Origin: Clostridia bacterium
GTDB taxonomy: Bacteria > Bacillota > Clostridia > Oscillospirales > Oscillospiraceae
Direction of reading: 5' to 3'
NCBI GenBank assembly: GCA_024404825.1
Contig: JAKSPM010000002.1
Coordinates: 1-41,814, forward strand
Length of the DNA stretch: 41,814 nucleotides
A program made the position numbers and the translations under genes. The notes beneath the pieces are model-generated. The model was given only the letters and a program-made list of their open reading frames with translations. It made no database searches and was not told the DNA's origin. This document shows, one piece after another, positions 15,769 through 33,651 of the stretch; within the stretch, counting starts at the first letter, position 1, and each line of letters starts with the position of its first letter.

Positions 15769-17304
15769 TTATTCGGCCACCTGAAGCTTATGATGGCAAG
15801 CTACGAAGTGGTTGGGAGCAACTTCCTCCCACTCGGGCGTGATGTGCTCACAGATTTCTGTGCAGTACTTGCAGCGAGTGTGGAATTTGCAGCCCTTCGG
15901 AGGATCGACGGGGCTGGGAATATCGCCTTCAAGGATCTCAAGCTGACGTCCGCCCACGGATTCCGTTGTGGGAATCGCGTTCAAAAGCGCCTCTGTGTAA
16001 GGATGGCGCGGCTTGTCGAAGATTTCCTCCGAGGCAGCCAACTCGACCATCGACCCAAGATACATTACCCCGATTCGGTCGGAAATATACTTAACGACGG
16101 AAAGGTCGTGGGTAATGAAGAGATAGGTAAGATTTTCACGTTCCTTCAGGTCAAGCAGCAGATTGATGATCTGCGCCTGAATGGAGACGTCAAGTGCGGA
16201 AACGGCTTCGTCACAAACAACAAACTTCGGGTTGGTCGCAAGTGCTCTGGCAATACCGATACGCTGACGCTGACCGCCGGAGAACTGATGCGGGAAGCGG
16301 TGCAGGAAGTAGGGTGCAAGGCCGCATTCGTCCATGACGTTCAAAACCATTTCCTGCATACGGTCGCCCTTGTTCTTCACCATGTTGTGGGCAATCATGC
16401 CCTCGCTGATGATCTGGCCGACGCTCATACGCGGATTCAGAGAAGAATACGGATCCTGGAAGATCAACTGCATATCGCGGCGGAGCTTACGGATCTCCTC
16501 GTATTTCAGACGTGCCAGGTCGATGCCGTCATCACGGTAGGCCTCGTACTTTTGGAACTCGGGATCGTTTGCATAGGGCTTGCGCATCTGATCGATCTCT
16601 GCGCTGATGGCACTCAGCTCCTTGCGGTAAGCATCGATCTTTGCATCGGTGTCGGCAAGCTTCTGCTCTGCCTTTGCAAGCTTCTTCTCGTTGTATTCTT
16701 TTCCGGCTTCTTCTGCGGCTCTCTTGGCGTACCTTTCTTCTTCGACGTTTACGGCATGCTTTTCGCGTTTGTCGTCCATTGCGGAAAGCTTCTTTGCAAT
16801 GTCATAGCTCTTGCTGTAGACGTCGATAACAGGCTTCAGGTCATCAACGGAAACAAAGCCGCCGACGATCTTCGTCATGTTGAGCATGGCATCTTCTTCC
16901 AGCTTACGCGCGCTATCCAGCTCCGCGTGCTTGGCATATTTGCCCTTCTCGTCGAGCGTTTCATATTCCGCTTCGAGCTTTTCTCTCTTCTGCCGCAGGT
17001 CGTGCCACTTTTCGCGCAGTGATTTGAGATTCTTTACCGTTGCGCTAACATATTTCGGAGCGACATCATCCAAAGATCTGCCATAGTACATGGTACGACC
17101 ATAGGTCTGATGGTACAGCTGCAGGATGGTACGGCCGAGGGTGGACTTGCCGCAGCCGGACTCGCCGACGAGGCCGAAGGTCTCGCCCTTGTAAATATCA
17201 ATGGAAATGCCGTCGTTTGCCTTAACAAAACGGCCCTTTTTCAGCGGAAAATACTGCTTCAGGTTGCTGATTCGGAGCAGAACTTCTTTATTGTTGTTTT
17301 CCAT
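15769..17304 (-). CDS. oppF: Oligopeptide ABC transporter ATPase OppF with large coiled-coil insertion
   Basis: A 511-residue ATP-binding subunit of a peptide importer. The ABC motifs are intact: Walker [10 protein letters not shown] (47-55), Q-loop [11 protein letters not shown] (281-291), signature FSGGQRQR (341-348), Walker [13 protein letters not shown] (361-372) and H-loop ITHD. The usual C-terminal Cys-rich peptide-transporter segment [11 protein letters not shown] is present. Family members have only about 35 residues between Walker A and the RKLRRDMQ segment. Here about 190 extra residues (roughly 78-270) intervene, mostly charged coiled-coil heptads rich in Lys, Glu and Ala. ATG 17304 follows AAGGAGG and overlaps the oppD end by 17 bases. 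A much longer open frame upstream is oppD in another frame. Confidence 0.92.
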
Positions 17305-18283
17305 GTCTGTCCTCCTTATTGGGATAGAAGCAGCGAACCTGCTGATTTTCGGACACATGAACCAACTCGGGTTCTTCCTCCTGGCAACGCTCGGTTGCGT
17401 ACTTGCAGCGCGGTGCAAACTTGCAGCCCTTCGGCAGATCCAACGGATGCGGGACGGCACCCGGGATCGCCTCAAGACGTGCATCGCCCGGCGTATCAAG
17501 TCTCGGGATGGAAAGCATCAGGCCTTCCGTATAGGGATGAGAATACTCCGAGGAATGGAAAATCGTTTCCGCGGGAGCAAACTCAACGACCTGGCCGCAA
17601 TACATGACTGCAACGTCATCTGCCATCTGGTTGATAACGCCGAGGTCATGCGTAATGAACAGGACTGCTGTGTTATTCTTTTCACGCAGTTCGTTCATCA
17701 GCTTCAGGATCTGTGCCTGAATGGTAACGTCAAGCGCAGTGGTGGGCTCGTCGGCAATAAGGATCTTCGGCTTGCAGGCAAGTGCCATAGCGATCATGAC
17801 ACGCTGACGCATACCGCCGGAGAGCTGGTGCGGATACTGCTTTGCAACAACCTCGGGATTCGGGATCTTAACGTCAGACAGAAGCTCGATTGCCTTCTGT
17901 GCAGCTTCGCTCTTGCTCATTCCCTGATGGATCATCAGCGGCTCGGAAAGCTGCTTGCTGACAGAGAAGACAGGGTTCAGGCTAGTCATCGGTTCCTGGA
18001 AAATGACAGAGATATCATTGCCGCGAATCTTATACATTTCCTTGGTGGAAAGCTTTGTCAGGTCTTTTCCGTCAAAGATGATCTCGCCGGATTCGATGTA
18101 ACCGTTGCCGTCAAGAAGCTGAAGGATACTCATTGCGGAAACGCTCTTGCCGGAGCCGGATTCACCGACGATGCCGAGAACCTTACCGGAATCGACACTG
18201 TAGCTGACGCCGTTGACTGCCTTAACAATACCGCGTTTTGTCGTAAAGAAAGTTTTCAGGTTTTTAAGCTCTAATAATGCCAT
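17288..18283 (-). CDS. oppD: Oligopeptide ABC transporter ATPase OppD
   Basis: A 331-residue ATP-binding subunit that pairs with OppF to power peptide uptake. It shows Walker [10 protein letters not shown]-loop [12 protein letters not shown], signature LSGGMRQR, Walker [13 protein letters not shown] and H-loop FITHD, then the C-terminal SHPYTEGLM and [11 protein letters not shown] segments typical of OppD. Length is normal and, unlike OppF next door, there is no insertion. TAAGGAGGG precedes the ATG. It starts 12 bases after oppC. Confidence 0.95.
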
Positions 18284-18295
18284 AATTCACCCTCC

Positions 18296-20131
18296 TTACC
18301 GTTCCGCGGACTTCGGATCGACTGCATCGCGAAGCGCATCACCGATCAGGTTGATGCAAATCGTGCAGATGCCGAAGATCGCTGCGGGGAATACCCAACG
18401 CCACCAGAACTGCTGAATAACAAGAGAGTTATTGGCACCGGTCAGCATATTGCCCCAGGTCGGTGTGGGGGGCGAAATGCCGAAGCCCATGTAAGACAGA
18501 GTGGATTCGGTCAGCATACAGGTTGCAAATTCAAGCGTTGCATCGACGAGAATCATACTCAGTACATTGGGAATAATATGGCGGAAGATAATGACGCGTT
18601 CTTTAATGCCCATGGCCTTGGCCGCGGTAACATATTCCTGTTCACGCTGGGAGAAGATCTGCGCACGGATCATGTGGCAGATGCCCGGCCAGGACAGGAC
18701 GCCGAGGACGACCATGATAAGATACATTCTCTGCTCAACGGAGATTCTCGTGCCGATGATTGCAGATAGGATCATTGCAAACGGGATAAACGGCAGACCG
18801 CCGATAACCTCGGATACACGCATGACGATCATATCGACCCAGCCGCCGAAGTAGCCGGCCAGACCGCCGAGGATAATGCCGATCACGAGAGAGATCAAAA
18901 CGGAGATAGCGCCGACGGTCATAGTGACCTTACCGCCATTAACAATACGGTTCAGGATATCACGACCGAGATCGTCTGTGCCGCAGAGATAACCCTTCAG
19001 GCCCCATGCTTCAATGTCACCCTTTTCGGTGACGGCATAGTTCTGATAGAAGCCGACATAGATGTCTTCAACATTCTTGACAGAAGACGGGACTTTGGTC
19101 TGCTTGTGGGTATTGTCGCCCCAGGAGACGACCTTGCCGTTATCAAGCAGAACGGAATAATGGTAACGGCCGCCGGAAATCCGGACGGGCTTGCCGTCAA
19201 ACTTCGGAACATCATTCTCGCCCTTGGTGCAGGTGCCCCAAACGACGACAGTGCCGTCTTCCTTTACTGCCGCAACGGAGTTGCTGGTACTGGCAATATC
19301 GACAACACCGCTGTCAAGACCCTCGGGGATCCTGGCAAGAGGATTGTCCTTCTGATATCCGGTATAGGCAACAGAGCCATCCTTCAGCAGGGAAATGTAA
19401 GCATAACTCGTAAGTGCGACTTTCTGGATATTGCCCTTATAGTCGCTCTTTACGCCGATATCCGAAAGATTGCTGTTGCCCCAGATATACAGGTCACCGC
19501 TTTCGGTCACGACTGCCGAGAACTGGTTGCTTGCTTCGAGCTGAACGATGTTGGGATTCCTGCCGCTGTTGGCATAAGCCGTCAACTTGTCGGGAATTTT
19601 GTCCTGGCCGAGACGGCGGTTGCCCCAAACATAGAGCTTACCGAATTTGTCCAGTGCAACAATATGGTCATAGCCGGCAGCGATATCGACGATATCCTTA
19701 TCCTTGAGATTCTCGGGGATGTCCTTAAGATCAATTTTGGAAGTGATCTTGGTTTTGCCCCAAAGATAGATCTTGCCGTCTTCATCGAGGCCTGCCGCAA
19801 AGGTGGGGCCGGGGGCGATTTTCTTGACCTTGCCGTTCATTTCTTCCGGCGCGGAAAGCATGTTCAGTCCGGGAGGAACGTTGGTCTGCGTATTGTCCTG
19901 GTAGGACAGATCCAGCTTAAAGAAGGCCGGGCCGATCATGACAAACAGGAAAATCAGCAGGAAGATAATCAAGCCCGTCATGCCGAGCGTGTTGTGGGTA
20001 AAGTTCTTTACCATCAAGCGGCCGGGGCTCTGAAGCTGTTCTTCCTTCATAAAGTCTGTGACTTTATTGCGGTTGCCGAACAGTCTTTGCAGAATCGTGC
20101 AGGAGTGCTTGGTCTTGTTCTTATTTTTCAT
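18296..20131 (-). CDS. oppC: Oligopeptide permease OppC with inserted RCC1-like beta-propeller
   Basis: A 611-residue inner-membrane permease subunit, roughly twice the usual OppC length. The C-terminal half is standard: CGTDDLGRDILNRI (383-396), five predicted membrane helices, the EAA-loop segment EYVTAAKAMGIKE, and the family end DALRDAVDPK. The N-terminus has a cytoplasmic stretch and the first helix (about 52-70). Between them, residues about 101-378 form seven repeats of the pattern V-x-x-I-A-x-G ... L-x-x-D-G-x-(h)4-W-G, with the WG or equivalent at 124, 169, 217, 257, 298, 337 and 376. These are RCC1-type repeats, enough for one propeller, placed on the extracellular side. ATG 20131, 9 bases after AAGGAGG, was preferred to a TTG three codons earlier. 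Confidence 0.93.
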   Translation of the reverse strand: MKNKNKTKHSCTILQRLFGNRNKVTDFMKEEQLQSPGRLMVKNFTHNTLGMTGLIIFLLIFLFVMIGPAFFKLDLSYQDNTQTNVPPGLNMLSAPEEMNGKVKKIAPGPTFAAGLDEDGKIYLWGKTKITSKIDLKDIPENLKDKDIVDIAAGYDHIVALDKFGKLYVWGNRRLGQDKIPDKLTAYANSGRNPNIVQLEASNQFSAVVTESGDLYIWGNSNLSDIGVKSDYKGNIQKVALTSYAYISLLKDGSVAYTGYQKDNPLARIPEGLDSGVVDIASTSNSVAAVKEDGTVVVWGTCTKGENDVPKFDGKPVRISGGRYHYSVLLDNGKVVSWGDNTHKQTKVPSSVKNVEDIYVGFYQNYAVTEKGDIEAWGLKGYLCGTDDLGRDILNRIVNGGKVTMTVGAISVLISLVIGIILGGLAGYFGGWVDMIVMRVSEVIGGLPFIPFAMILSAIIGTRISVEQRMYLIMVVLGVLSWPGICHMIRAQIFSQREQEYVTAAKAMGIKERVIIFRHIIPNVLSMILVDATLEFATCMLTESTLSYMGFGISPPTPTWGNMLTGANNSLVIQQFWWRWVFPAAIFGICTICINLIGDALRDAVDPKSAER

Positions 20132-20145
20132 CGTTCCCAACCTCC

Positions 20146-21162
20146 TTACTTATCCACACGGACACGCGGGTCGACCAGGCCGTAGCTAAGGTCGGTGATC
20201 AGCTGCCCGACGAGGCTGATAATGATGTAGAACATCTGAATTGCAAGGGCAAGCTCATAGTCATTATTCATCAGGCCCTGATAGTAAAGCTGTCCCATGC
20301 CGTTAAGACCGAACATATTTTCAATAATCAGAGAACCGGAGAAAATGCTGATAAACCAGCCGATGATGACCGTGATGACCGGAAGCAAAGCATTGCGCCA
20401 TGCGTGAGAATAGATGACAACCTTTTCACGCAGACCCTTTGCACGTGCTGTACGGATATAGTCCATGCTCAAAGAGTCGATCATTGCAGCACGGACATAT
20501 CTGGTCATGCCGCCGAGGGAGCCGACCGTCATAACAAGCACCGGCAAAATGAGGTAGTAGGTCTTGTCGAGGAATGCTCGGAACCCCGTGAAGTGGTTGC
20601 CCGGTGTTTCTATACCTGAAACAGGCAGCCATCCCATGGTAACTGCAAAGAACCAGATGAATATCAGGCCTATGATGTAAATCGGTATGGAGTAACCGAT
20701 GATCGTAAGCACCTGTACGCTGCTGTCGAACTTGCCGCGCTTATGCACCGCACAGTAAATGCCCAACGGGATCGTTATTGCAAGTGCAATGATCGTTGAG
20801 AATATGTTGATGAATATCGTATTCTTCATACGGATGGGAATAACCTCTGCAACATCCGTTTTGTAAAGCTGCGAATAACCGAGGTTGCCCTCCAGCAATC
20901 CGTCAAACTTTCCGTTCACATCCGGAACAAAGCCCATCCATCGCGCGTATCGCACGACCAGCGGTGCATCCAAACCCATTTGATGTCGTAATTGCTCGTA
21001 TCTTTTCTCATACTCCGCCGGACGCAGCGAACGCTTTAACGGTTCAAGCTGTGCGCGAGCCGGGTCAGTCGGGATCAGGTTATATATTGCATACATCAGC
21101 AATGAAACGATCAAAAAGACGAGGACCATATAAAGCAGACGCTTAACTACATATTTTCCCAT
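20146..21162 (-). CDS. oppB: Oligopeptide permease OppB
   Basis: A 338-residue permease subunit with six predicted membrane helices, forming the translocation channel with OppC. The N-terminal helix leads into NLIPTDPAR. An extracellular segment with RHQMGLDAPLVVRYARW is typical of Firmicute OppB, and the EAA-type loop MDYIRTARAKGL contacts the ATPases. The C-terminus ends DLSYGLVDPRVR. ATG 21162 was chosen because GGAGG is 8 bases away. The ATG two codons earlier is only 2 bases from it. Confidence 0.95.
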   Translation of the reverse strand: MGKYVVKRLLYMVLVFLIVSLLMYAIYNLIPTDPARAQLEPLKRSLRPAEYEKRYEQLRHQMGLDAPLVVRYARWMGFVPDVNGKFDGLLEGNLGYSQLYKTDVAEVIPIRMKNTIFINIFSTIIALAITIPLGIYCAVHKRGKFDSSVQVLTIIGYSIPIYIIGLIFIWFFAVTMGWLPVSGIETPGNHFTGFRAFLDKTYYLILPVLVMTVGSLGGMTRYVRAAMIDSLSMDYIRTARAKGLREKVVIYSHAWRNALLPVITVIIGWFISIFSGSLIIENMFGLNGMGQLYYQGLMNNDYELALAIQMFYIIISLVGQLITDLSYGLVDPRVRVDK

Positions 21163-21264
21163 CTGCATGACCTCCTTTACTATCTTTTTACTTTCTTTTT
21201 ATAGCAGTCCCGGAACGGGACATAATATTCGAATTCAAATCGGTCTCAAGAACCGAAACAAGAA

Positions 21265-21331: not shown

Positions 21332-23263
21332 TTACTTAGCGCCTTCGATGGAAGCGTAAATAATTGCTTTCTGGAAATCCCAAAGGCTGGATTCTTCATA
21401 GCCCTTCAGCCAGGACGGGAAGAAGGTGTGATAGTCGTTGCAGTAAAGAGCCAGATCGGGAAGCAGTTCGTTGAAGCGGATGATGAACTTCTGATAGTAA
21501 TCAAGGTAAGCTGCATCATCGCCGGGAGCTGCATCGTAAACCATGTCCATGGACAGGTCGTCGAGTTCCTTGTCGAAGATATAGTTGGTGTTGTAGCCCA
21601 TCTCGACATAGGGGGACTCAGGATCAGATGCGAAGTTGAAGGAGTAGTCATAGACTTCTGCGAAGCCGGTAGCCAGGTTGTACATACCGTAGGTGGGAAC
21701 ACCATACTGTTCGCCAACGGAGGTATCACGGTACATCCAGTTCAGCAGTTCGGTGAAGGTCATAACGTTCTGTTCAATGACCATGCCTGCATCAGCAGTC
21801 TGCTGACCGTTAGCCAGCATGGTAACGAGCAGGTCGGAGACGGAGTTGCCTTCGGAGGAAGCCCACATGATGTGCAGAGGCATCAGGATGCGGCCGTCGT
21901 CGAGGGTAACGTTCAGAGCGTAGTCGCCTGCTTCTTCGGGGGAAACTTCCTTGTAACGGACACCGGAGACATAGTCGTTGCCTTCAGCATCGAGGACCCA
22001 ACCGTCAGCCTCGAGGACTTCGATAGCCTTAGCGGGATCGTATGCGTAGGTGTTGAGCTTTTCGTTGAAGAGTTCTTCGGAATCCTGATACATCCACTGA
22101 GCGGTGCTGTATGCAGCATGGACAACGGAGCCGTAGCCGCCGCAGAAGGTGGTAGCGAATTCGTTACGGTCAAGCAGATATGCAACAGCCTGACGAACAG
22201 CGGTAAACTGCGTGGGGCCAAAGTCGCACTGGAACTGGATCTTGCCGTAGCCGTTACGGGTGTAGTGGCAGTAGTCGAAGCCGCCATCTTCAACCATGTC
22301 GAGAGCAGCGTTGATCTGCTCGCCTTCGGAAACCTGAGACAGGAAGTTGATTTCGCCGGTCTTGAAAGCGTCCATCATGGTCTCGTCCTCAGCCTTGACA
22401 AGAACGATCGTCTTGATGCTGGGCTTCTGGCCTTCGAAGTTGCCTGCGTAGTTGGGGTTGATCTCAAGGGTGGTAACCAGAGTACCGACGTCGAGGCTCT
22501 TCAGAGTGTAGGGGCCTGCGGAGACACGGTCTGCATAAACGTAACGGGATGCATTGATTTCATCTGCATTCAGTTCGCCGCCGTCGAGGTAGACACCTTC
22601 GCCGTCGTCCTTAACAGTCAGAGCAGCGGAGCTGTACAGAGGCAGATAGATGGGGGACAGGGATGCATAGGACAGGCCAAAGTAGTACTGAGCGTAGTCA
22701 GGAGTGATGCTGATGGAGTAGGTGTACTCGTCGAGCAGTCTGACGCCGCTGAGGACCTTGGTGGTGCCATCCTGATAATCCTGTGCGCCGACAACGGTAT
22801 CAGCATACATGGTTGCGCCTGCTTCGAGGGTTGCAGGAGAATAAGCAACCAGTGAATATGCGACGAAGTCAGCAGCAGTGATGGGCGTACCGTTGTTGAA
22901 CTTCAGGCCTTCCTTGATCTTAACGGTGTAGGTTGCAGTGCCGTCGTCGTTCATAACAACATCGCTGACTTCTTCAGCAACGGTGGTATTAACAACCATC
23001 TGACCACCCTGGTCAAATACGATAACACTGTAATCATCGATCAGATCGCGGATCAGCTTGTCGGTAGCATTGTTGGACCACCATGCGTTGCCGAGGTCGC
23101 CGGAAACTTCAGTGGTGCTGCCGTAGATGATCTTGTTTTCGCGCGTGCCGGTCGGGGTCTTGCCGGGATCATTCTTGCCGTCTTTCTTACAGCCGGTGAA
23201 AGCAGCCAGAACAAGAACCAGAGCCAGGACTAACGCCAAAACCTTGGAAAGATTCTTCTTCAT
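21332..23263 (-). CDS. oppA: Oligopeptide-binding lipoprotein OppA
   Basis: A 643-residue extracellular solute-binding protein (SBP_bac_5 type) that captures peptides for the permease. The signal peptide is a repetitive Leu-Val-Ala stretch ending in the lipobox AAFTGC, so Cys25 should be lipidated and anchor the protein to the membrane. Family traits include GLKFNNGTPITAADFVAYS near residue 130 and a 'Val-Arg-Gln-Ala' helix start, TAVRQAVAYLLDR. It is slightly longer than average for the family. It is the first gene of the operon, with its own strong promoter and a hairpin downstream, consistent with the higher dose needed for a binding protein. Confidence 0.94.
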   Translation of the reverse strand: MKKNLSKVLALVLALVLVLAAFTGCKKDGKNDPGKTPTGTRENKIIYGSTTEVSGDLGNAWWSNNATDKLIRDLIDDYSVIVFDQGGQMVVNTTVAEEVSDVVMNDDGTATYTVKIKEGLKFNNGTPITAADFVAYSLVAYSPATLEAGATMYADTVVGAQDYQDGTTKVLSGVRLLDEYTYSISITPDYAQYYFGLSYASLSPIYLPLYSSAALTVKDDGEGVYLDGGELNADEINASRYVYADRVSAGPYTLKSLDVGTLVTTLEINPNYAGNFEGQKPSIKTIVLVKAEDETMMDAFKTGEINFLSQVSEGEQINAALDMVEDGGFDYCHYTRNGYGKIQFQCDFGPTQFTAVRQAVAYLLDRNEFATTFCGGYGSVVHAAYSTAQWMYQDSEELFNEKLNTYAYDPAKAIEVLEADGWVLDAEGNDYVSGVRYKEVSPEEAGDYALNVTLDDGRILMPLHIMWASSEGNSVSDLLVTMLANGQQTADAGMVIEQNVMTFTELLNWMYRDTSVGEQYGVPTYGMYNLATGFAEVYDYSFNFASDPESPYVEMGYNTNYIFDKELDDLSMDMVYDAAPGDDAAYLDYYQKFIIRFNELLPDLALYCNDYHTFFPSWLKGYEESSLWDFQKAIIYASIEGAK

Positions 23264-23701: not shown

Positions 23702-25540
23702 TTATGTCTCGATCGCGCAGACACCGTACGGAAGCAGGAAGCGTTCGCCGTTCGGAAGCTGCTGCATATTTTCAGAGAACAGGATCGTACCGGCTGCATC
23801 TGTCATCTGCGGAGCATCGCTCCGGTTGACGAACATCGTGACCCGGCGTCCCTGCCATGTGCGGACGAATGACAGCTTTCCTTCCCCTGCCGACAGCACA
23901 CGCAGGTCGCCGTAGCGCAGGACGGGATGCTCTTTCATCCTGCCGAGTGCCTGATACCACGCCGTCAGCGCCTGATCCTCATTGCCCCAGGGGAAGCAGG
24001 CGCGGTTAAACGGATCCTTGCAGCCCTCCATCCCTGCCTCATCGCCGTAATAGATGCTCGGGCTGCCCGGGAGGGTAAACTGCAAAAAGCTTGCAAGGTG
24101 CAGCCGTCTGACGGCAAGCGCCCGCTCTTCCTCCGACAAAACAACCTCTGCCTGCTCCGGGCGGGTGTCCGGGATCTTTCTGACAAGAGCGGTCAGAATT
24201 CTTGCCGTGTCATGGCTGCCGAGCAGATTCATCAGGCACGATACGACCTGCGGCGGATAGTTTTCTGCGATGGTCATGAGGATCTCTGCGAGTGCGGTGC
24301 CGTCATCCTCTTCCCTGCAAAAGCGTATAATTGCCTTTTGCCACGGGTAATTCATTGTGCTGTCAAGCTGTGCGTCGGTGAAATATCTGCGCAGCTCGTC
24401 ATAGGCCTTTTTGTTGGAGGCATCCTCCCAGACCTCGCCCAAAAGGGCTGCATCCGGGCGAAGCTCCCGCAGGCGGCATTTCAGATGGGAAACGAACAGG
24501 TCGGGCAGTTCATCGACTACATCCAAACGGAACCCGTCCGCACCGAGCTTTAACCAGTGTTCCAAAACGCTGTCCTGCCCGTACATGATGAAGTCCTGAT
24601 AGTTTTCGTCCAGCTCGCGCACATCGGGCAGGGTCTCAAAGCCCCACCAGCACTCATATTTGTCTGGGAAGTGCTTGAAGGTGTACCAGCTGTAATAAGG
24701 AGAGCTCTCTCCTTTTACGGCGCCGTTGCCGAAGATGCCGAATTTGTCAAAATAAACGCTGTTTGCCCCTGTATGGGAATAGACGCCGTCGAGAATCACG
24801 TGCATTCCGAGCTCGTGCGCTTTCGTTGTCAGCGTGCGGAAGTCCTCCTCGGTGCCGAGCATGGGGTCGGGACGCTTATAGTCCGCCGTATCGTAGCGGT
24901 GGTTGGAAAAGGCCATACCAATGGGGTTTAAGTAAAGAACGGTCGCGCCCAGGTTACGGATATACTCCAGTTTTTCGGTAATGCCGCGGAAGTTGCCGCC
25001 GAAAAAGTCATTGCAGAGCACCTCGCCCTTTTCATTGGGAGAATACTGCGGCTGACCGCCCCAGTCCTCGCGGAGAATAAAGGGCTGCAGCTTGTCGTGC
25101 AGATCACAGTCTCCCGACTTTTTGAAGCGGTCGGGGAAAATCTGATAGATGACTGCACCCTTGAGCCAGTCGGGCGTGGTGAAATTCTCCGGGATGACAC
25201 TCAGCTGCCAGCGGTCGCCTGCTTCCATGTTGGTATCGTTTCCCTGCTTGAACAGGCGGAAAGGCCCCGTATTGGCCGTGATGCGGAACCAGTAAAAATA
25301 CAGGCCGCAGGTATTCAAAGATACCGTGCAGGTAAAGCTGTCATAGAGGTCTTTTGTCCCCTCCTTTCGGAACGGGAAGCTCCCGACAGGGGTACCGTCT
25401 TCTGTCTCGAATTCCACGCTGACGGCGGATGTTTCGCAGCTGCACGGGATCAGGATGCGCAGCGAACAAGCCTCCTTCGGAACAAGAGTTCCGAAGGGGG
25501 CTTTGTAGTATAGCTCTTTGCTGTTATATAAAATGCGCAT
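23702..25540 (-). CDS. GH13 alpha-glucan hydrolase (neopullulanase/cyclomaltodextrinase-like)
   Basis: A 612-residue enzyme expected to hydrolyse alpha-1,4 or alpha-1,6 glucans. An N-terminal beta-sandwich (about 1-115) precedes a TIM barrel with the GH13 regions: GMHVILDGVYSHTG, GFRLDVVDELP (nucleophile Asp), LLGEVWEDAS (acid/base Glu) and LLGSHDTARI (transition-state Asp), then a C-terminal beta domain. The DWLKGAVIYQIFPDRF entry is typical of the neopullulanase group. There is no signal peptide, so it acts inside the cell. As last gene of the glycogen operon it probably debranches or trims limit dextrins left by GlgP. The ribosome site is weak (GAAAGAG), suggesting lower expression. Confidence 0.88.
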   Translation of the reverse strand: MRILYNSKELYYKAPFGTLVPKEACSLRILIPCSCETSAVSVEFETEDGTPVGSFPFRKEGTKDLYDSFTCTVSLNTCGLYFYWFRITANTGPFRLFKQGNDTNMEAGDRWQLSVIPENFTTPDWLKGAVIYQIFPDRFKKSGDCDLHDKLQPFILREDWGGQPQYSPNEKGEVLCNDFFGGNFRGITEKLEYIRNLGATVLYLNPIGMAFSNHRYDTADYKRPDPMLGTEEDFRTLTTKAHELGMHVILDGVYSHTGANSVYFDKFGIFGNGAVKGESSPYYSWYTFKHFPDKYECWWGFETLPDVRELDENYQDFIMYGQDSVLEHWLKLGADGFRLDVVDELPDLFVSHLKCRLRELRPDAALLGEVWEDASNKKAYDELRRYFTDAQLDSTMNYPWQKAIIRFCREEDDGTALAEILMTIAENYPPQVVSCLMNLLGSHDTARILTALVRKIPDTRPEQAEVVLSEEERALAVRRLHLASFLQFTLPGSPSIYYGDEAGMEGCKDPFNRACFPWGNEDQALTAWYQALGRMKEHPVLRYGDLRVLSAGEGKLSFVRTWQGRRVTMFVNRSDAPQMTDAAGTILFSENMQQLPNGERFLLPYGVCAIET

Positions 25541-25560
25541 GGTCGTTCTCTTTCTTTGTT

Positions 25561-27951
25561 TTATAAATGCCAGATATTCTCCGCATACTCGGTGACGGCG
25601 CGGTCTGCCGAGAAGATCCCTGCCTTTGCGATGTTGACCAAAGCTTTTTTCTGGAAGCCGATGGGATCGTCAAAGGCGTTTGCGGCATCGCGCTGCGCAC
25701 GGGCATAATCGTTGAAGTCCGCCAGAGTCATATAGGCATCGGCCGTGCCGAAGCGATTTGTCAGCAGCGAAAGCACGATGTCATCAAAGCGCTGACCGAG
25801 GACGCCGGAGGTCAGGATATCCAGCACGCCGCGCAGCTCATCGGTCAAATACTCATTGGGATTATAGCCCCGCTGCCAAAGTGCCTCTACCTCGTCGGCC
25901 TTCAAGCCGAACAGGAACATATTTTCGTCTCCGACCTTTTCATGGATCTCCACATTCGCTCCGTCGAGCGTGCCGATGGTGACGGCACCGTTGATCATAA
26001 ACTTCATGTTGGAGGTGCCGGAGGCTTCCTTGCCCGCGATGGAGATCTGCTCGGACAGGTCTGCCGCCGGGATGATGATCTCGGCAAGAGAAACCTTGTA
26101 GTCCTCAATGAAGATGACCTTGAGCTTGTCTCTGACCTGCGGATCGGAGTTGATGAACTTCGATACCGCCACGATCAGGCTGATGATTTGCTTTGCGCGG
26201 ACATAGCCTGCCGAGGCCTTTGCGCCGAAGATGAAGGTATGGGGCGTAAAGGGGCTATTGGGCGAGGCTTTGATTTTGTTATAAAGAGACAGAATGTGCA
26301 GCACGTTCAGAAGCTGCCGCTTATATTCATGCAGGCGCTTGATCTGCACATCGAAGATGGAAGCAGGGTCGACATTGATGCCGTTCGCCTGCGCGATATA
26401 CTTGGCAAGTCTTGCCTTGTTGTCTCGCTTGATCAGCTCCAAAGCCTTCAGAACGCCCTCGTCATCGCGGTAGGAAAGCAGGCGCTCTAATTGCTTCGCG
26501 TCGTTTTTATAGTCATCTCCGATGATCTCATCCAAAAAGCCCGTAAGGGACGGATTGGACTGACACAGCCATCTGCGGTATGCAATGCCGTTCGTGACAT
26601 TCGTAAAACGCTTGGGAGACAGACTGCAATAGTCGCGGAACAGGCCGTTTTTGAGGATGTCCGTGTGAAGCTTGGAAACGCCGTTGACTGTATGGCAGCA
26701 GGCAAGGCAGAGATTTGCCATGCGCACCTCGCCGCCGGAAATGACGGCCATATAGTCGATCTTACCGGGGTCGTTCGGGAAGCTCTTTTGAAGCGATTCC
26801 CTAAGCCGGCGGTTGATTTCCGCAGTGATGGAATAGATGCGCGGAAGCTGCTCACGGAAGAGCTCCACGCTCCAATGCTCTAAGGCCTCGGACATGACGG
26901 TATGGTTGGTGTAGGAAAGGGTCTTCTGCGCCATTTCCCATGCTTCATCCCAGCCGTAATCGTGCTCGTCCATCAGAAGCCGCATCAGCTCCGGCACGCA
27001 CAGTGCCGGGTGGGTGTCGTTGATGTGGATGGCAACCTTATCCGAAAGATTGTCGAGCGTGCCGTAATCTCTCAGATGGCGGTTGAGAATCTGTTGCAAA
27101 GACGCAGACACGAGCAGATATTGCTGCCGCAGGCGCAGGCGCTTGCCGGAGATGTGGTCGTCTGCCGGATAGAGCACCTTGGAGATGGTCTCCGCCATCG
27201 TGTTCTGCTCCAATGCGCGGACATAGTCGCCTCTGGAGAAGGCTGCCATGTCGAAGCTCTGCGGAAGCTTGGCACTCCACAGAACAAGCTTATTGACCGC
27301 CTTGCTGTCGTAGCCCGAGATCAGCATATCATAGGGCACCGCCATGACGGATGTATAGCCCACATGGGCGACCTTGAACTTGCCGTTGTCCTGCCACTCG
27401 CGTGCTTCGCCGCCGAAGCGCACCTCCACGGCCTCATCCTGCCGCGGACGCAGCCAGACATCGCCCATTTCCAGCCAGTTGTCAGGGAACTCCATCTGCC
27501 AGCCGTCAACGATCTTCTGACGGAAGATGCCGAATTCATAGCGGATGGAATAGCCGGTGGCGGGATAGTCGAGCCCTGTCAGGCTGTCCATATAGCACGA
27601 GGCAAGCCTGCCTAAGCCGCCGTTGCCGAGGCCTGCATCAGGCTCCATGTCATAGAGCTTTTCGATGTCAAAGCCCTTTTCGGCCAAGGCCGCACGGAAG
27701 GGTTCCTCCACGCCGAGGTTGAAGAGGTTGTTGCGCAGGGAGGTGCCGACCAAAAATTCCATTGACATATAGAAGACCTGCTTGCGGCCTTCCTCCCTGC
27801 AGGTATGGCGGTAGCTGCGGCGCTTTTCGGCGAGCATTTCCCGCACGACCGTGCATAGTGCACGGTAGACCTGCTTTTCGGTGGCCTCGTCTACGGAGCA
27901 GCCAAACTCGTGCTGACATTCTAAGTCGATCAGTTCAAGATAAGATTTCAT
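25561..27951 (-). CDS. glgP: Glycogen/maltodextrin phosphorylase
   Basis: A 796-residue GT35 enzyme that releases glucose-1-phosphate from the non-reducing ends of alpha-1,4 glucans using pyridoxal phosphate. Conserved parts include DAGLGNGGLGRLASCYMDSL, HINDTHPALCVPELMR, RLHEYKRQLLN and the cofactor-lysine block KEASGTSNMKFMINGA. Length and end-to-end conservation look complete. It lies 21 bases after glgA and 20 before the GH13 gene. AAAGGA precedes the ATG by about 12 bases, rather far. With glgA in the same operon, both synthesis and breakdown are co-expressed, so flux must be set by metabolite control. Confidence 0.96.
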   Translation of the reverse strand: MKSYLELIDLECQHEFGCSVDEATEKQVYRALCTVVREMLAEKRRSYRHTCREEGRKQVFYMSMEFLVGTSLRNNLFNLGVEEPFRAALAEKGFDIEKLYDMEPDAGLGNGGLGRLASCYMDSLTGLDYPATGYSIRYEFGIFRQKIVDGWQMEFPDNWLEMGDVWLRPRQDEAVEVRFGGEAREWQDNGKFKVAHVGYTSVMAVPYDMLISGYDSKAVNKLVLWSAKLPQSFDMAAFSRGDYVRALEQNTMAETISKVLYPADDHISGKRLRLRQQYLLVSASLQQILNRHLRDYGTLDNLSDKVAIHINDTHPALCVPELMRLLMDEHDYGWDEAWEMAQKTLSYTNHTVMSEALEHWSVELFREQLPRIYSITAEINRRLRESLQKSFPNDPGKIDYMAVISGGEVRMANLCLACCHTVNGVSKLHTDILKNGLFRDYCSLSPKRFTNVTNGIAYRRWLCQSNPSLTGFLDEIIGDDYKNDAKQLERLLSYRDDEGVLKALELIKRDNKARLAKYIAQANGINVDPASIFDVQIKRLHEYKRQLLNVLHILSLYNKIKASPNSPFTPHTFIFGAKASAGYVRAKQIISLIVAVSKFINSDPQVRDKLKVIFIEDYKVSLAEIIIPAADLSEQISIAGKEASGTSNMKFMINGAVTIGTLDGANVEIHEKVGDENMFLFGLKADEVEALWQRGYNPNEYLTDELRGVLDILTSGVLGQRFDDIVLSLLTNRFGTADAYMTLADFNDYARAQRDAANAFDDPIGFQKKALVNIAKAGIFSADRAVTEYAENIWHL

Positions 27952-27972
27952 AGATTGCGTCGGGTCCTTTCG

Positions 27973-29400
27973 TTACAGAAGGCTTTGATAAAGTGCCATG
28001 TACTCCTGTGCAGGTGCTTTCCAGCTGCAGTCAAATTCCATGTCTCTGCGCATCAGATCGTTCCATGCCTTCTTGTCGTTATAGTACAGCGTGATGGCGC
28101 GGTCAATGGCCGCGAGGAAATCATCGGCATTGTAGCTTTGGAAATTGAAGCCTCTGCCGTCCTTGCTCTGCGGATTATAGGGCGGAACGGTGTCTTTTAA
28201 ACCACCCGTAGCATTGACCACGGGGATCGTGCCATAGTGCATGGCAATGAGCTGGCTCAAGCCGCAGGGTTCGGACTTCGACGGCATCAGGTAGATGTCA
28301 GCGCCCGCATAAACGCAGGAGGCAAGCTTCGGGTCAAAGCGCAGATTCATGGAGAATCTGCCGGGATAGCTTGCTGCCATACCGGCAAGAAGCTGCTCAT
28401 ACATCCGGTCACCTGTACCGACGATGACAAGCTGAACCTCTCTGTCCATAAGTCTGTGCAGAATGTAGGTCAGCAGGTCGATGCCCTTATGGCCGACCAG
28501 GCGCGTGACCATTGCCATCACAGGAACATCCGGCGCTTCATTGAGGCCGAGTTCTCTTTGCAGGGCGAGCTTATTTTCTGCTTTGCCCTTGAGGTTCTTG
28601 GCGGAGAAGTTCGCGCTCAGCGCGCTATCCGTCTGCGGATTATAGACATCTACATCAATGCCGTTGGTGATGCCGGTGAGCTTTTCGCCGCAGCCTGCAA
28701 GCACGCCATCGAGGCCGTGCGCATAGTAGGGGTATTTCAGCTCCTGCGAATAGGTCTTCGAGACGGTCGTCACACGGTCGGACAGTGCAATGGCGCCCTT
28801 CATAAAGTTCAGACAGCCGTCAAAGCTCAAAATATCCTTATATTCGGCAGGCAGGCCGATGGTATCTTCAAAGAAGGCGGGGTCTGCCTTGCCCTGATAT
28901 TCGACATTGTGGATGGTGAATATCAGGCGGGTGGAGGGCCAGCGGCTTTGATACAGTGCACGGAAATAGACCGGGATCAAGGCAGTTTGCCAGTCGTGGC
29001 AATGCAGAATATCCGGCTCAAAGCCGATATAGTTCATGCAGGCAAGCACTGCCTTGGAGAAGAAGGCAAAGCGTTCGCCGTCATCATAGTCGCCGTAGAC
29101 GGAGTCTCGGCCAAAATAGTATTCGTTGTCGATAAAGTAGATCTGCAGCTTCTTTTTGCGGCTTTTGAGCTTGAAAAGGCCCACATACTGTTCTCTCCAG
29201 GACAGTCCCATAGAGAACGACCCGACAAAGGTAACGGGGGTGTCAGAATGATATTTGATCCGCTTATAGTAAGGCAGGAACAGAACGATCTCATTGCCGG
29301 GGATACGGGCAAGCTCTGCGGGCAGTGCCTGCAGAACATCGCCCAAGCCGCCGGTCTTGACAAACGGAGCCGCCTCAGAGGCAGCGATGGCAATTCTCAT
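27973..29400 (-). CDS. glgA: Glycogen synthase (ADP-glucose)
   Basis: A 475-residue GT5 enzyme that extends alpha-1,4 glucan chains from ADP-glucose. It has the N-terminal substrate motif FVKTGGLGDVLQALP, the DILHCHDWQTALIP segment, VTRLVGHKGIDLL at the second Rossmann domain and the catalytic MPSKSEPCGLSQLIAM followed by ATGGLKDTV. Its ATG overlaps the glgD stop as ATGA, with GAGGAG upstream inside glgD. Normal length. Confidence 0.96.
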   Translation of the reverse strand: MRIAIAASEAAPFVKTGGLGDVLQALPAELARIPGNEIVLFLPYYKRIKYHSDTPVTFVGSFSMGLSWREQYVGLFKLKSRKKKLQIYFIDNEYYFGRDSVYGDYDDGERFAFFSKAVLACMNYIGFEPDILHCHDWQTALIPVYFRALYQSRWPSTRLIFTIHNVEYQGKADPAFFEDTIGLPAEYKDILSFDGCLNFMKGAIALSDRVTTVSKTYSQELKYPYYAHGLDGVLAGCGEKLTGITNGIDVDVYNPQTDSALSANFSAKNLKGKAENKLALQRELGLNEAPDVPVMAMVTRLVGHKGIDLLTYILHRLMDREVQLVIVGTGDRMYEQLLAGMAASYPGRFSMNLRFDPKLASCVYAGADIYLMPSKSEPCGLSQLIAMHYGTIPVVNATGGLKDTVPPYNPQSKDGRGFNFQSYNADDFLAAIDRAITLYYNDKKAWNDLMRRDMEFDCSWKAPAQEYMALYQSLL

Positions 29401-30512
29401 ATAATTTCTCCTCTTTCCACGATCACGGGATGATCGGGAGTTCCGCAGAGCTTGGTACCCTTGCGGACGCGGACATCCTTATCCAAAATGCAGCACTTGA
29501 CCTCGGCGCCTTCTTCGATGACGGCATCCTGCATGATGACGCAATCGGAAACCTGTGCGCCCTTTTCGACCTGGACGCCGCGGAACAGCACGGAATGGAC
29601 GGCATTGCCCTTGAGGATGCAGCCGTCGCCGACGATGCAGTTATCGATCTCGGCGCTGTCGCCGAAGTAAACGGGAACCTCATTGCGGACTCTCGTATAA
29701 ATGGTCTGCTCGCTGTGGAAAAGCTCGTTGCGTACATCCCAGTCAAGCAGCGCCAAATTGTTGCGGTAATATTCCTTGGGGCTTTCGTTGAACAGGGCAA
29801 CGCTGTCATACTTGTAGGCATGGATCTTCATATTGCCTGTGAAGAAGCCGCGCATGATCATATCGCGCTCCAAGCGGTAGAGGCTGTGAGAAACGGCATC
29901 CTTCGTGCGCTCAATGAGCAGCTCGCGCTTCATCACGAATACGCCCATAGAGGCATAGTAGCGATCGTCGGCTGCAAAGTCCACGGCCATGTCTTCGATC
30001 CTGCCGTCCTCGCCGAGCAAAATACCGAGGTCTACCTGCTTCGAGCCGTTGCAGATACCGTCCTTGACAACAACGGTCACATCTGCGCCGGAGGCGATGT
30101 GGTCATCGAGCACCTTGCGGTAGTCCATTGCACACAGCACGCCGCCGTCTGCCATGACGATATATTCTTCTTTTGCAAGAGAAAGGAAGTCGATAGCCGC
30201 ATTCAGGGCATCGAGCTTGCCGCGATAGGAGCCGCTGTGACCCTGTGCAAACGGGGTCAGGAATTCCAAACCGCCTTCGCCGAGCTCCATATCCCACTCC
30301 TGACCCGAGCCGATATGGTTCATCAGAGACTGATAGTTATATTTCGTGATCACGCCGACATGGCTGATGGCGGAGTTGGACATATTGGACAGGCAGAAAT
30401 CAATATTGCGGTATCTTGCGCCGAACGGAAGCGAAGCGATGGTACGCTTGTTGGTCAGCTGACCGAGGGAACTGTCATAGATATTAGCAAAGATAACACC
30501 CATTAAATTCAT
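29397..30512 (-). CDS. glgD: GlgD, regulatory subunit of ADP-glucose pyrophosphorylase
   Basis: A 371-residue paralogue of GlgC found in Firmicutes. It keeps the nucleotidyltransferase fold and the C-terminal left-handed beta-helix (hexapeptide repeats such as CIVGDGCILKGNAV) but lacks the GGxGxRL catalytic loop. The N-terminus reads LMGVIFANIYDSSLGQLT instead, which matches the known non-catalytic GlgD type that associates with GlgC. ATG 30512 was chosen because AAAGGAGG is 8 bases upstream. The ATG two codons before lies too close to that site. It begins 20 bases after glgC. Confidence 0.93.
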   Translation of the reverse strand: MNLMGVIFANIYDSSLGQLTNKRTIASLPFGARYRNIDFCLSNMSNSAISHVGVITKYNYQSLMNHIGSGQEWDMELGEGGLEFLTPFAQGHSGSYRGKLDALNAAIDFLSLAKEEYIVMADGGVLCAMDYRKVLDDHIASGADVTVVVKDGICNGSKQVDLGILLGEDGRIEDMAVDFAADDRYYASMGVFVMKRELLIERTKDAVSHSLYRLERDMIMRGFFTGNMKIHAYKYDSVALFNESPKEYYRNNLALLDWDVRNELFHSEQTIYTRVRNEVPVYFGDSAEIDNCIVGDGCILKGNAVHSVLFRGVQVEKGAQVSDCVIMQDAVIEEGAEVKCCILDKDVRVRKGTKLCGTPDHPVIVERGEII

Positions 30513-30532
30513 GTTCATTTCCTCCTTTCGCC

Positions 30533-31720
30533 TTATACGATCTCGCCGGGTGCAATGGAACGGTTTTCTTCGATGACCGTATCCTTGCCCACGACACTGA
30601 TTTCTTTCTTTTCGCCGTCTGCGAAGGTGCCGCCGATCACCGCTCCGCGGCAAATACTGCAATTTTCACCGATGATGGCATGGCGCACAATCGCGCCGGA
30701 CTCGATAATCGTGTTCGGCATGATGACACTGTCTTCCACAACAGCGTCCTTGCGGACGATGCAGTTGGTGGAGATAATGCAGTGATCTACCTTGCCGTAG
30801 ATGCCGCAGCCCTCGGCTATGAAGGAGTTGCGGATGGAGCTGTCAGCGTCAATATAAGATGACGGGCAAGCGTAGTTTCTGGCGTAGATCTTATGGGTCT
30901 TGTCTCCGTAGATGTCAAACGCAGGCTCATCACCCAAAAGCTCCATGTTGGCCTCCCAAAGAGAGCCGATCGTGCCGACATCCTTCCAGTAGCCGTTGAA
31001 ATCATAGGCGTACATCTTATGGCCTGCGTTCAAAATGGCAGGAATGACATTCTTGCCGAAGTCGTTGCTGGAATCGGGGTCTGCCTCGTCTTCGATGAGG
31101 AACTTTTTGAGGATGCTCCAACGGAAAATGTAGATACCCATGGAGGCGTTGTTGCTCTTGGGCTGCTTGGGCTTTTCTTCGAATTCGTAAACGGAGCCGT
31201 CGTCTCGGGTGTTCATGATACCGAAGCGGCTTGCCTCCTCCATCGGCACCTTACGCACGGCGATGGTGCAGTCGGCCTGCTTTTCTTCATGGAAGGCAAG
31301 CATTTCGGCGTAGTCCATGCGGTAGATGTGGTCGCCGGAGAGGATCAGCACATTTTCGGGGTCATAGCGTTCGATAAAGGCAATATTCTGATAAATAGCG
31401 TTTGCCGTGCCCTTGTACCATTCGGATTTTTCCGAGCGGGCATAGGGCGGCAGCACCTGCACGCCGCCGTGGGACTTGTTCAGGCCCCAGGGCTGACCGT
31501 TGCCGATATACTCGTTCAGCTCCAGGGGCTGATACTGGGTCAGGATGCCGACGGTATCAATACCGGAGTTGACGCAGTTGGACAGGGGGAAGTCAATGAT
31601 GCGGTACTTGCCGCCGAAGGGAACGGCAGGCTTTGCAGTGTTCTGGGTCAGCACCATCAGACGGCTGCCCTGGCCGCCCGCCAACAGCATGGCGACACAA
31701 TGTTTCTTCTGAAAATTCAT
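30533..31720 (-). CDS. glgC: ADP-glucose pyrophosphorylase, catalytic subunit
   Basis: A 395-residue enzyme that makes ADP-glucose from glucose-1-phosphate and ATP, the committed step of glycogen synthesis. Seen are the nucleotide loop [36 protein letters not shown], the glucose-phosphate site [10 protein letters not shown], the [14 protein letters not shown] block and a C-terminal beta-helix. The loop residue after GSRL is Met where most homologues have Gly. The start overlaps the glgB stop as ATGA, and its GGAG site lies inside glgB. Confidence 0.96.
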
Positions 31721-33651
31721 AAGCTCGTCTCCTTTTTCTTACCGGAGGTCTCCGGCTTATTTAGTTTTCCGTCCGTAGGCGGAGATGATTTCCTTTTTGC
31801 GCCTGCTCTGCGTCGGTAGATCGTGACAGACATCGCAGGCAGAGTAAATTCCGCGGAATACTGATAAGCGCCCCAGGGCTTTTTTTGCGTTTTGACCGAG
31901 GGAACGAAGGTGCCGCAGCCGCCGTAGGGTCGAGAGTCCGAGCAGAACACCGGATCATAGGTGCCCGTCTTCGGCAGACCGAGACGGTAGTGATCGCGGT
32001 AGCAGGGGCAGAAGTTGCAAAGCACGATCAACTCTTTTCCGTCCTTGCCGATCCGGCGGTAGGACAGGATGCTGTTGTCTCTGTCGTCCGGCTCCAGCCA
32101 TTTGAAGCATTCCCAGCCTTGTTCGTTGTCCCACAGGCAGGGGTTGTCCAGATAGAAATGATTTAGATCCTTGACAAAGACCTGCATCTGCCGGTGTCTG
32201 TCATAGCCGAGCAGCAGCCAGTCAAGCCCCTGCTCATAGTTCCACTCGATGAACTGCGCGAACTCGCTGCCCATGAAGTTGAGCTTTTTGCCGGGTTCTG
32301 TCATCATATAGGCAAAGAAGGCACGCAGATTGTGGAATTTCTGATCGTATTCTCCGGGCATCCTGCCGATCAGGGACAGTTTTCCATGCACGACCTCGTC
32401 ATGCGAAAGCGGCAGAATGAAATTCTCGGAAAAGGCATAGGTCAGCTGGAAGGTCAGCTTGTTATGCTCATATTTGCGGTAGACCGGGTCTTTGGACATA
32501 TAATCCAAAAGATCGTTCATCCAGCCCATGTTCCACTTAAACAGGAACCCGAGGCCGCCCTCATACACAGGCCGCGTGATCTTCGGGAAGGTCGTGGATT
32601 CCTCGGCGATCATCAGCACGTTCGGCTTGTGCGCGAACGCCGCGATATTGAGCCGCTGCAGAAAGCTGATCGCCTCTAAGTTTTCCCTGCCGCCGTAGCG
32701 GTTGGGCTTGAACTTCGGACGGTTATAATCCAGGTACAGCATGGACGCCACCGCGTCCACGCGGATACCGTCGATGTGGTATTTCTCCAGCCAGAAAATG
32801 ACATTGGAGATCAGGAATGAGCTGACGCCGCCCTTACCGTAGTCAAAAATTCGGGTACCCCAGTCGGGGTGCTCATTCATTGCAGGGTCGGAAAGCTCAT
32901 ATTGGCAAGTGCCGTCAAATTCATAAAGCCCGTTCTCATCCTTCGGGAAGTGGGCAGGTACCCAGTCTAAAATCACGCCGATCCCCGCCTGATGGCAGCT
33001 ATTTACAAAGCCCATCAGCTCCTGCGGAGCGCCGTAGCGGAAGGTCGGAGAATAATAGCAGGTCACCTGATAGCCCCAGCTCGGGTCATAGGGGTATTCG
33101 GTGAGCGGAAGCAGCTCGATGTGGGTGTAGCCCATATCTTTGACATAGGGAACAAGCTCCTGCGCAAGCTCTGCATAAGACAGGTAACTGCCGTCCTCAT
33201 GCCGTTTCCACGAGCCTAAATGTACCTCGTAGATATTGACCGGGCGCTTTAACACATTCTGCCTTGCGGCAGTGCGGCGGTAAATACCGTCGCTCCATTT
33301 GTAATTTAAGGTGCACAGAATGCTGGATGTATCAGGAAGCGCAGCCGTGCGGAAGCCGTAGGGGTCGGTCTTATAGACCCGTTTCCCGCTGCGGTGGGCC
33401 ACACAATATTTATAACATTGTCCCTCTTTTGCGAAGGTGGAAACAGCCTCCCAAATGCCCTCGCCGATCGGGTGCATGGGAAGATCCTCGGGATTCCAGA
33501 AATTGAAATCGCCGACGACGCTCACGGCACTTGCATTCGGCGCCCAGACACGGAATCGCCAGCCGTTTTTCTCCTGATGTGCGCCGAGCAGTTCATATGC
33601 ATTTTCCAGCGCGCCGGATGTGAATTTTTGCAGTTGTTCGGATAGGTTCAA
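31717..33651 (-). CDS. glgB: 1,4-alpha-glucan branching enzyme
   Basis: A 644-residue GH13 enzyme that introduces alpha-1,6 branches. An N-terminal CBM48/Ig-like domain ([20 protein letters not shown]) is followed by the barrel with [28 protein letters not shown] (nucleophile Asp), [12 protein letters not shown] (acid/base Glu) and [10 protein letters not shown], then a C-terminal beta domain with a Lys-rich tail that also encodes the glgC ribosome site. The start codon is TTG at 33651, supported by GAGGAG 7 bases upstream and the usual MNLSEQ-like beginning. No ATG fits. First gene of the operon. Confidence 0.95.

Follow-up and report, generated by a model that had tools for sequence, protein, structure and literature searches.

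An OppC permease with an RCC1/BLIP-II-like propeller in its first outer loop: a possible docking platform for the binding protein of a peptide importer

The permease subunits of textbook peptide importers are thought to be uniform. What, then, is a beta-propeller doing inside one of them? The window, as we call the whole stretch of DNA analysed here (41,814 nucleotides from a member of the Clostridia), contains an oppC gene in which an earlier note, made from the sequence alone, had seen seven RCC1-type repeats. We address below whether this architecture is real, how it arose and what the propeller might do. A complete propeller was grafted once, in a lineage that is both large and conserved, and has been kept there under selection; the locus amounts to a natural experiment on how a binding protein is held over its channel.

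The oppC gene (18296..20131; all features of the window given here are on the minus strand) was delimited by its open reading frame, Pfam, a structural model and fold matching. It starts with ATG behind a GGAGG (20141..20145), which the sequence identifies as its ribosome-binding site directly 3' of the oppB stop codon, and encodes 611 amino acids with no internal stop. In this single chain Pfam finds OppC_N at residues 35-87 (E 3e-9; 36.9 bits against a curated cut-off of 23.9) and BPD_transp_1 at residues 418-607 (E 4e-31; 108.7 bits against 26.4), together with RCC1_2 in four stretches (E 2e-30; 104 bits against 22) and RCC1 (26.9 bits against 21.7). The RCC1 and permease families are therefore both above their cut-offs in one protein. 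The RLD model PF25390 covers residues 95-344 (E 8e-43) with 147.5 bits, marginally below its cut-off of 150; the NCBIfam model Opp4C, top among the OppC models, gives 295.8 bits and does not reach its equivalog cut-off of 350. Six repeats end in WG, at residues 124, 169, 217, 298, 337 and 376, and a degenerate YTG at 256 brings the total to seven, the number that the earlier note had counted.

Pfam, hydropathy, fold matching and alignment with plain OppCs concur in placing the propeller where that note had put it, between the first membrane helix and GTDDLGRD. The helix, TM1, consists of hydrophobic residues 44-77 (19901..20002, by hydropathy) and follows an N-terminal tail with 10 K/R against 3 D/E. 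From GTDDLGRD (residue 385) to the C-terminal end runs the conserved permease core (18296..18979, by Pfam, alignment and fold match), including the coupling-helix motif AAKAMG. Given the positive tail, the position of TM1 and the topology of OppC known by homology, the positive-inside rule would put the insert outside the membrane. The architecture is confirmed as real: the Pfam E-values, together with independent relatives 38-76% identical over the full length, exclude chance. An assembly chimera or a broken gene, which the earlier note had already discounted, is ruled out, as the fusion recurs in independent genomes with identities of up to 76%.

How exact is the graft? The insert, a seven-bladed RCC1/BLIP-II-like propeller with a short lead-in, comprises residues 88-377 (19001..19870; Pfam, model and fold match, with the edges set by alignment to plain OppCs). 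The range of 101-378 proposed earlier was right within a few residues; the insert is slightly longer, since residues 88-101, the lead-in to blade 1, are also absent from ordinary OppC. Once residues 88-377 are removed, the remainder can be aligned to plain OppCs of 300 residues from the same class with no gap across the loop, the junction reading ...NVPP-LKGYLCGTDDLGRD... against ...NLPP-SSKHWLGTDEQGRD... in a plain OppC. The insertion point is the first outer loop, TM1-TM2 (PPxx...GTD), on the side of the binding protein OppA. From PP to GTD there are 8 residues in plain OppCs where the motif is present and about 300 in the window OppC, which bears out the unusual loop length. At its far end the propeller joins the permease through WG-LKGYL-GTD, with no flexible linker; this WGLKGYLxGTD link is short and conserved, which argues for a rigid mount. 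Boundaries of this kind are exact enough for a clean deletion as a test.

An AlphaFold model of the single OppC chain, built with 55 homologues, has a mean pLDDT of 86 and a pTM of 0.79; pLDDT is about 92 within the propeller and 91-94 where it joins the permease at either end. It shows seven complete three-stranded blades (residues 102-377) and not an open propeller. The modelled insert matches BLIP-II (beta-lactamase inhibitory protein II, 3qi0_A) over its length, with Z 30.9 and an rmsd of 2.1 over 255 of 268 residues, and the permease part, taken across the insert, matches E. coli OppC (8z21_B) with Z 30.5 over 278 of 278 residues; both values are from VIA-align on the model, and Foldseek agrees. 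As modelled, then, the insert is a closed seven-bladed propeller and the rest of the protein is a complete six-helix OppC fold. With OppC and DppC (8z21, 8z1v, 8j5q; NCBIfam Opp4C) the window protein shares the whole fold, OppC_N and BPD_transp_1, the coupling motif and the operon partners; it differs in that its outer loop between TM1 and TM2 is longer by 290 residues. BLIP-II (3qi0, 1jtd), an RCC1-like seven-bladed propeller, is alike in fold and is also closest by sequence (E 7e-24). It is, however, a free-standing inhibitor, whereas the propeller of the window is embedded in a permease and only 26% identical to it; no inhibitor role is implied.

The gene stands in an operon with oppA (21332..23263; 643 residues, a family 5 substrate-binding lipoprotein with the lipobox ..AFTGC), oppB (20146..21168; 340 residues, an ordinary permease partner) and oppD (17288..18283; an ATPase of 331 residues), all assigned by open reading frame and domain search, and with oppF (15769..17304), an ATPase in which motif spacing reveals a long internal insert. 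The window OppC is thus the permease of an OppABCDF peptide importer, and peptide transport is its predicted activity. About 60 related operons with OppA, OppB, OppD and OppF were found, some of them cut by contig ends. On every contig of sufficient length OppB and OppD adjoin the fusion; in most operons OppA is upstream and OppF downstream.

The fusion is not a one-off; it is widespread in a group of uncultured clostridia of the gut. Full-length relatives with 56-76% identity are present on ten contigs, mostly from animal-gut metagenome assemblies (two of these contigs recur among the sampled genomes), and among sampled species the fusion was found in 6 of 101 in the family, about 30 of 394 in the order, 17 of 391 in the class and 14 of 398 in the phylum (the samples overlap and each count includes the window's own genome). 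In a tree built from the permease domain only, without the insert, all 63 propeller-OppCs are on one side of a single branch (SH-aLRT 100, in a quick IQ-TREE search without bootstrap), and propeller presence requires one change, against a mean of 32 when shuffled. Hence the propeller was acquired once, and what had been seen in one gene belongs to a monophyletic OppC lineage with members in many families of the phylum. Neither this tree nor the genome surveys turned up a plain OppC within the propeller clade. Families are intermixed in it, which points to ancient inheritance followed by losses, to the transfer of entire operons, or to a combination of the two. The permease domains of L008 and L065, from two different families, are near-identical (branches of 0.025 and 0), which suggests either a recent operon transfer or assembly contamination. 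As for spread by plasmids, the query was not covered to 80% by any plasmid record. In the window's genome (96% complete) RCC1_2 matches oppC only, and no second gene of this type was found as a source of the propeller. An apparently free surface protein, the 1201-residue product of L056:4461-8063, combines RCC1 repeats with InlB-like and Ig-like repeats and DUF5648; it may exemplify the type of gene from which the propeller derives. The architecture is apparently undescribed: a search for RCC1-permease fusions in open-access papers returned nothing relevant, and no description of it as common in OppC. Papers on the large loop of streptococcal AmiC likewise offered nothing of use.

Could the propeller be a neutral passenger in a loop that tolerates insertions? 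A second OppC clade (SH-aLRT 100; L013-L031) does have unrelated inserts, 200-400 residues long, in this loop, giving proteins of 516-718 residues (L013:616-2205, L025:1495-3591, L029:103-2202 and relatives) with repeats of the form 'F-YxGxxYxV', and one such OppC is from the window's own genus. The TM1-TM2 outer loop of OppC is a recurrent site of domain insertion in the phylum. These other inserts, which by the same topology argument would also be outside, form a separate clade and are modelled with moderate confidence (pTM 0.52) as alpha+beta repeats instead of a propeller; no Pfam family matched them, and no PDB entry in the second-look structure list matched the insert itself, which says nothing on the novelty of its fold. 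The site therefore tolerates insertion. Nevertheless, pairwise dN/dS is 0.04-0.21 for the propeller and 0-0.14 for the permease (nine pairs, some with dS near saturation), and the blade-defining residues are kept down to about 38% identity. The propeller is under purifying selection. With no member that has lost it found in the clade, by surveys or tree, a neutral passenger is highly improbable.

If the propeller is useful, its partners may be reflected in how it evolves. In 39 complete operons its distances correlate most strongly with those of OppA (r 0.80), ahead of OppB (0.73) and of the permease half of the same protein (0.71). Given OppB, OppD, the permease and the OppF core, the partial correlation with OppA is 0.45 (permutation p 0.0005), and it stays between 0.32 and 0.66 in four further variants (quadratic terms, ranks and two subsets). 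The partial correlation with OppB is 0.30-0.58, whereas that with its own permease is about zero (-0.15 to 0.12, not significant). OppA divergence also correlates with other parts, namely the permease and the OppF insert. Such a pattern is as expected of a platform that touches OppA and OppB; shared rates or saturation can mimic it, and contact is thereby suggested rather than proven.

Two known importers offer precedents. The P2 domain of MalF is, as here, a folded unit that one permease subunit carries in an outer loop; it has another fold, sits in another loop and belongs to another permease family than the OppC propeller, and the likeness we draw is one of role only. In the maltose importer MalFGK2, this outer domain touches the binding protein (PMC3150292). 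In E. coli, DppB and DppC are together capped by the binding protein of Dpp, into which an outer, TM1-linked loop of DppB called the 'scoop' inserts, sealing the cavity (PMC12136057). From the correlated divergence, the rigid link, the Dpp scoop and the example of MalF-P2, we propose that the propeller is a rigid platform for docking OppA and sealing the cavity, in a role comparable to that of MalF-P2. A seven-bladed propeller of BLIP-II/RCC1 type, gained once in the short TM1-TM2 outer loop of a complete OppC, would sit just outside the membrane, rigidly mounted on the permease. Together with the outer loop of OppB it would hold the lipoprotein OppA in register over the channel mouth during peptide hand-over, as MalF-P2 does for maltose-binding protein. 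The insert on the side of the binding protein, the well-modelled and conserved junctions and a protein-binding nearest fold, BLIP-II, would all fit docking. Against it, sister importers dock OppA without a propeller, and no clear binding patch was identified on the propeller. We regard the docking platform as the likeliest reading, about evenly poised between right and wrong. The earlier note had listed docking among its possibilities; what that suggestion has gained is the correlated divergence, which is indirect.

The main rival is ligand binding. The propeller itself could be a receptor for peptides, peptidoglycan fragments or plant or host glycans near the channel, raising their local concentration or widening the substrate range. 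Between the window and L037 the propeller is 62% and the permease 91% identical, and such faster change is often seen in outer domains that select ligands; moreover, the divergence of OppA, the subunit that confers specificity, keeps pace with that of the propeller. Conservation compared loop by loop identified no clear binding patch or pocket: it is lowest in the inter-blade loops (0.47) and highest at the junction of blade 7 with the permease (0.76), and the conserved residues are mostly fold-defining ones (W, G, H, P). In addition, BLIP-II, the nearest solved homologue, binds protein, and capture in the importer is already done by OppA. We consider a receptor unlikely. The protein-binding habit of BLIP-II and other RCC1-like propellers, which serve as scaffolds, would also suit recruitment of another envelope protein, such as a peptidase or a cell-wall enzyme, whose products would then be coupled to import. 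Yet the window operon has no peptidase or cell-wall gene and is adjoined by glycogen-metabolism and flotillin-type genes, which leaves recruitment rather improbable.

Besides the propeller, one more feature of these operons calls for an explanation. The window OppF has about 180 charged, helix-like residues (approximately 16525..17064, from motif spacing and co-occurrence) between Walker A and the Q-loop, which are some 220 residues apart. This distance is 184-245 residues in propeller operons; the sister operons L156-L174 have 38-39. The OppF insert is found in nearly all operons with a propeller-OppC and in none of the sister operons examined, and the genomes that gave full-length matches to OppF in the survey of the family all had a propeller-OppC. 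DppC pairs with and contacts DppF in E. coli (PMC12136057), and because of this pairing both inserts, in OppC and in OppF, are probably carried by one and the same half-transporter. It is tempting to see in the two an outside-to-inside sensor on the OppC-OppF half that regulates the ATPase, the OppF insert having been found only with propeller-OppC and in all but one subclade. In that subclade (L116, L117 and L129), however, the propeller is present while Walker A and the Q-loop are 42 residues apart, with no insert. The OppF insert evolves even faster than the propeller, and the partial correlation of the two is only 0.07-0.24. Coupling between them is speculative, and such a sensor is very doubtful. 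A broader version, hardly less doubtful, would make these importers a distinct Opp subclass with a paired module on the OppC-OppF half, the outer propeller sensing or gating the loading of OppA and the inner helical insert adjusting the ATPase.

A few observations concern the operons and their surroundings. In most of one subclade of propeller operons (L118-L120, L133-L143, L152 and L155) OppA has about 738-800 residues, some 100 above the usual; L134, L137 and L142 deviate from this or are truncated. An apparent joint rise of propeller and OppA lengths is broken by the deep clade L180-L184 (long OppC, OppA of 598-620 residues), and we attribute it to a clade effect. Upstream of the window's opp operon is a glycogen-metabolism cluster (23702-33651, minus strand) with an alpha-amylase-type enzyme, a phosphorylase, a glycogen/starch synthase, two GlgC-like nucleotidyltransferases and a branching enzyme; flotillin-type genes are also among the neighbours of the operon. 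Finally, in an Acidimicrobiaceae assembly a frame of 1295 amino acids (L052:5901-9788) matches both OppC and OppD, which suggests a fusion of permease and ATPase.
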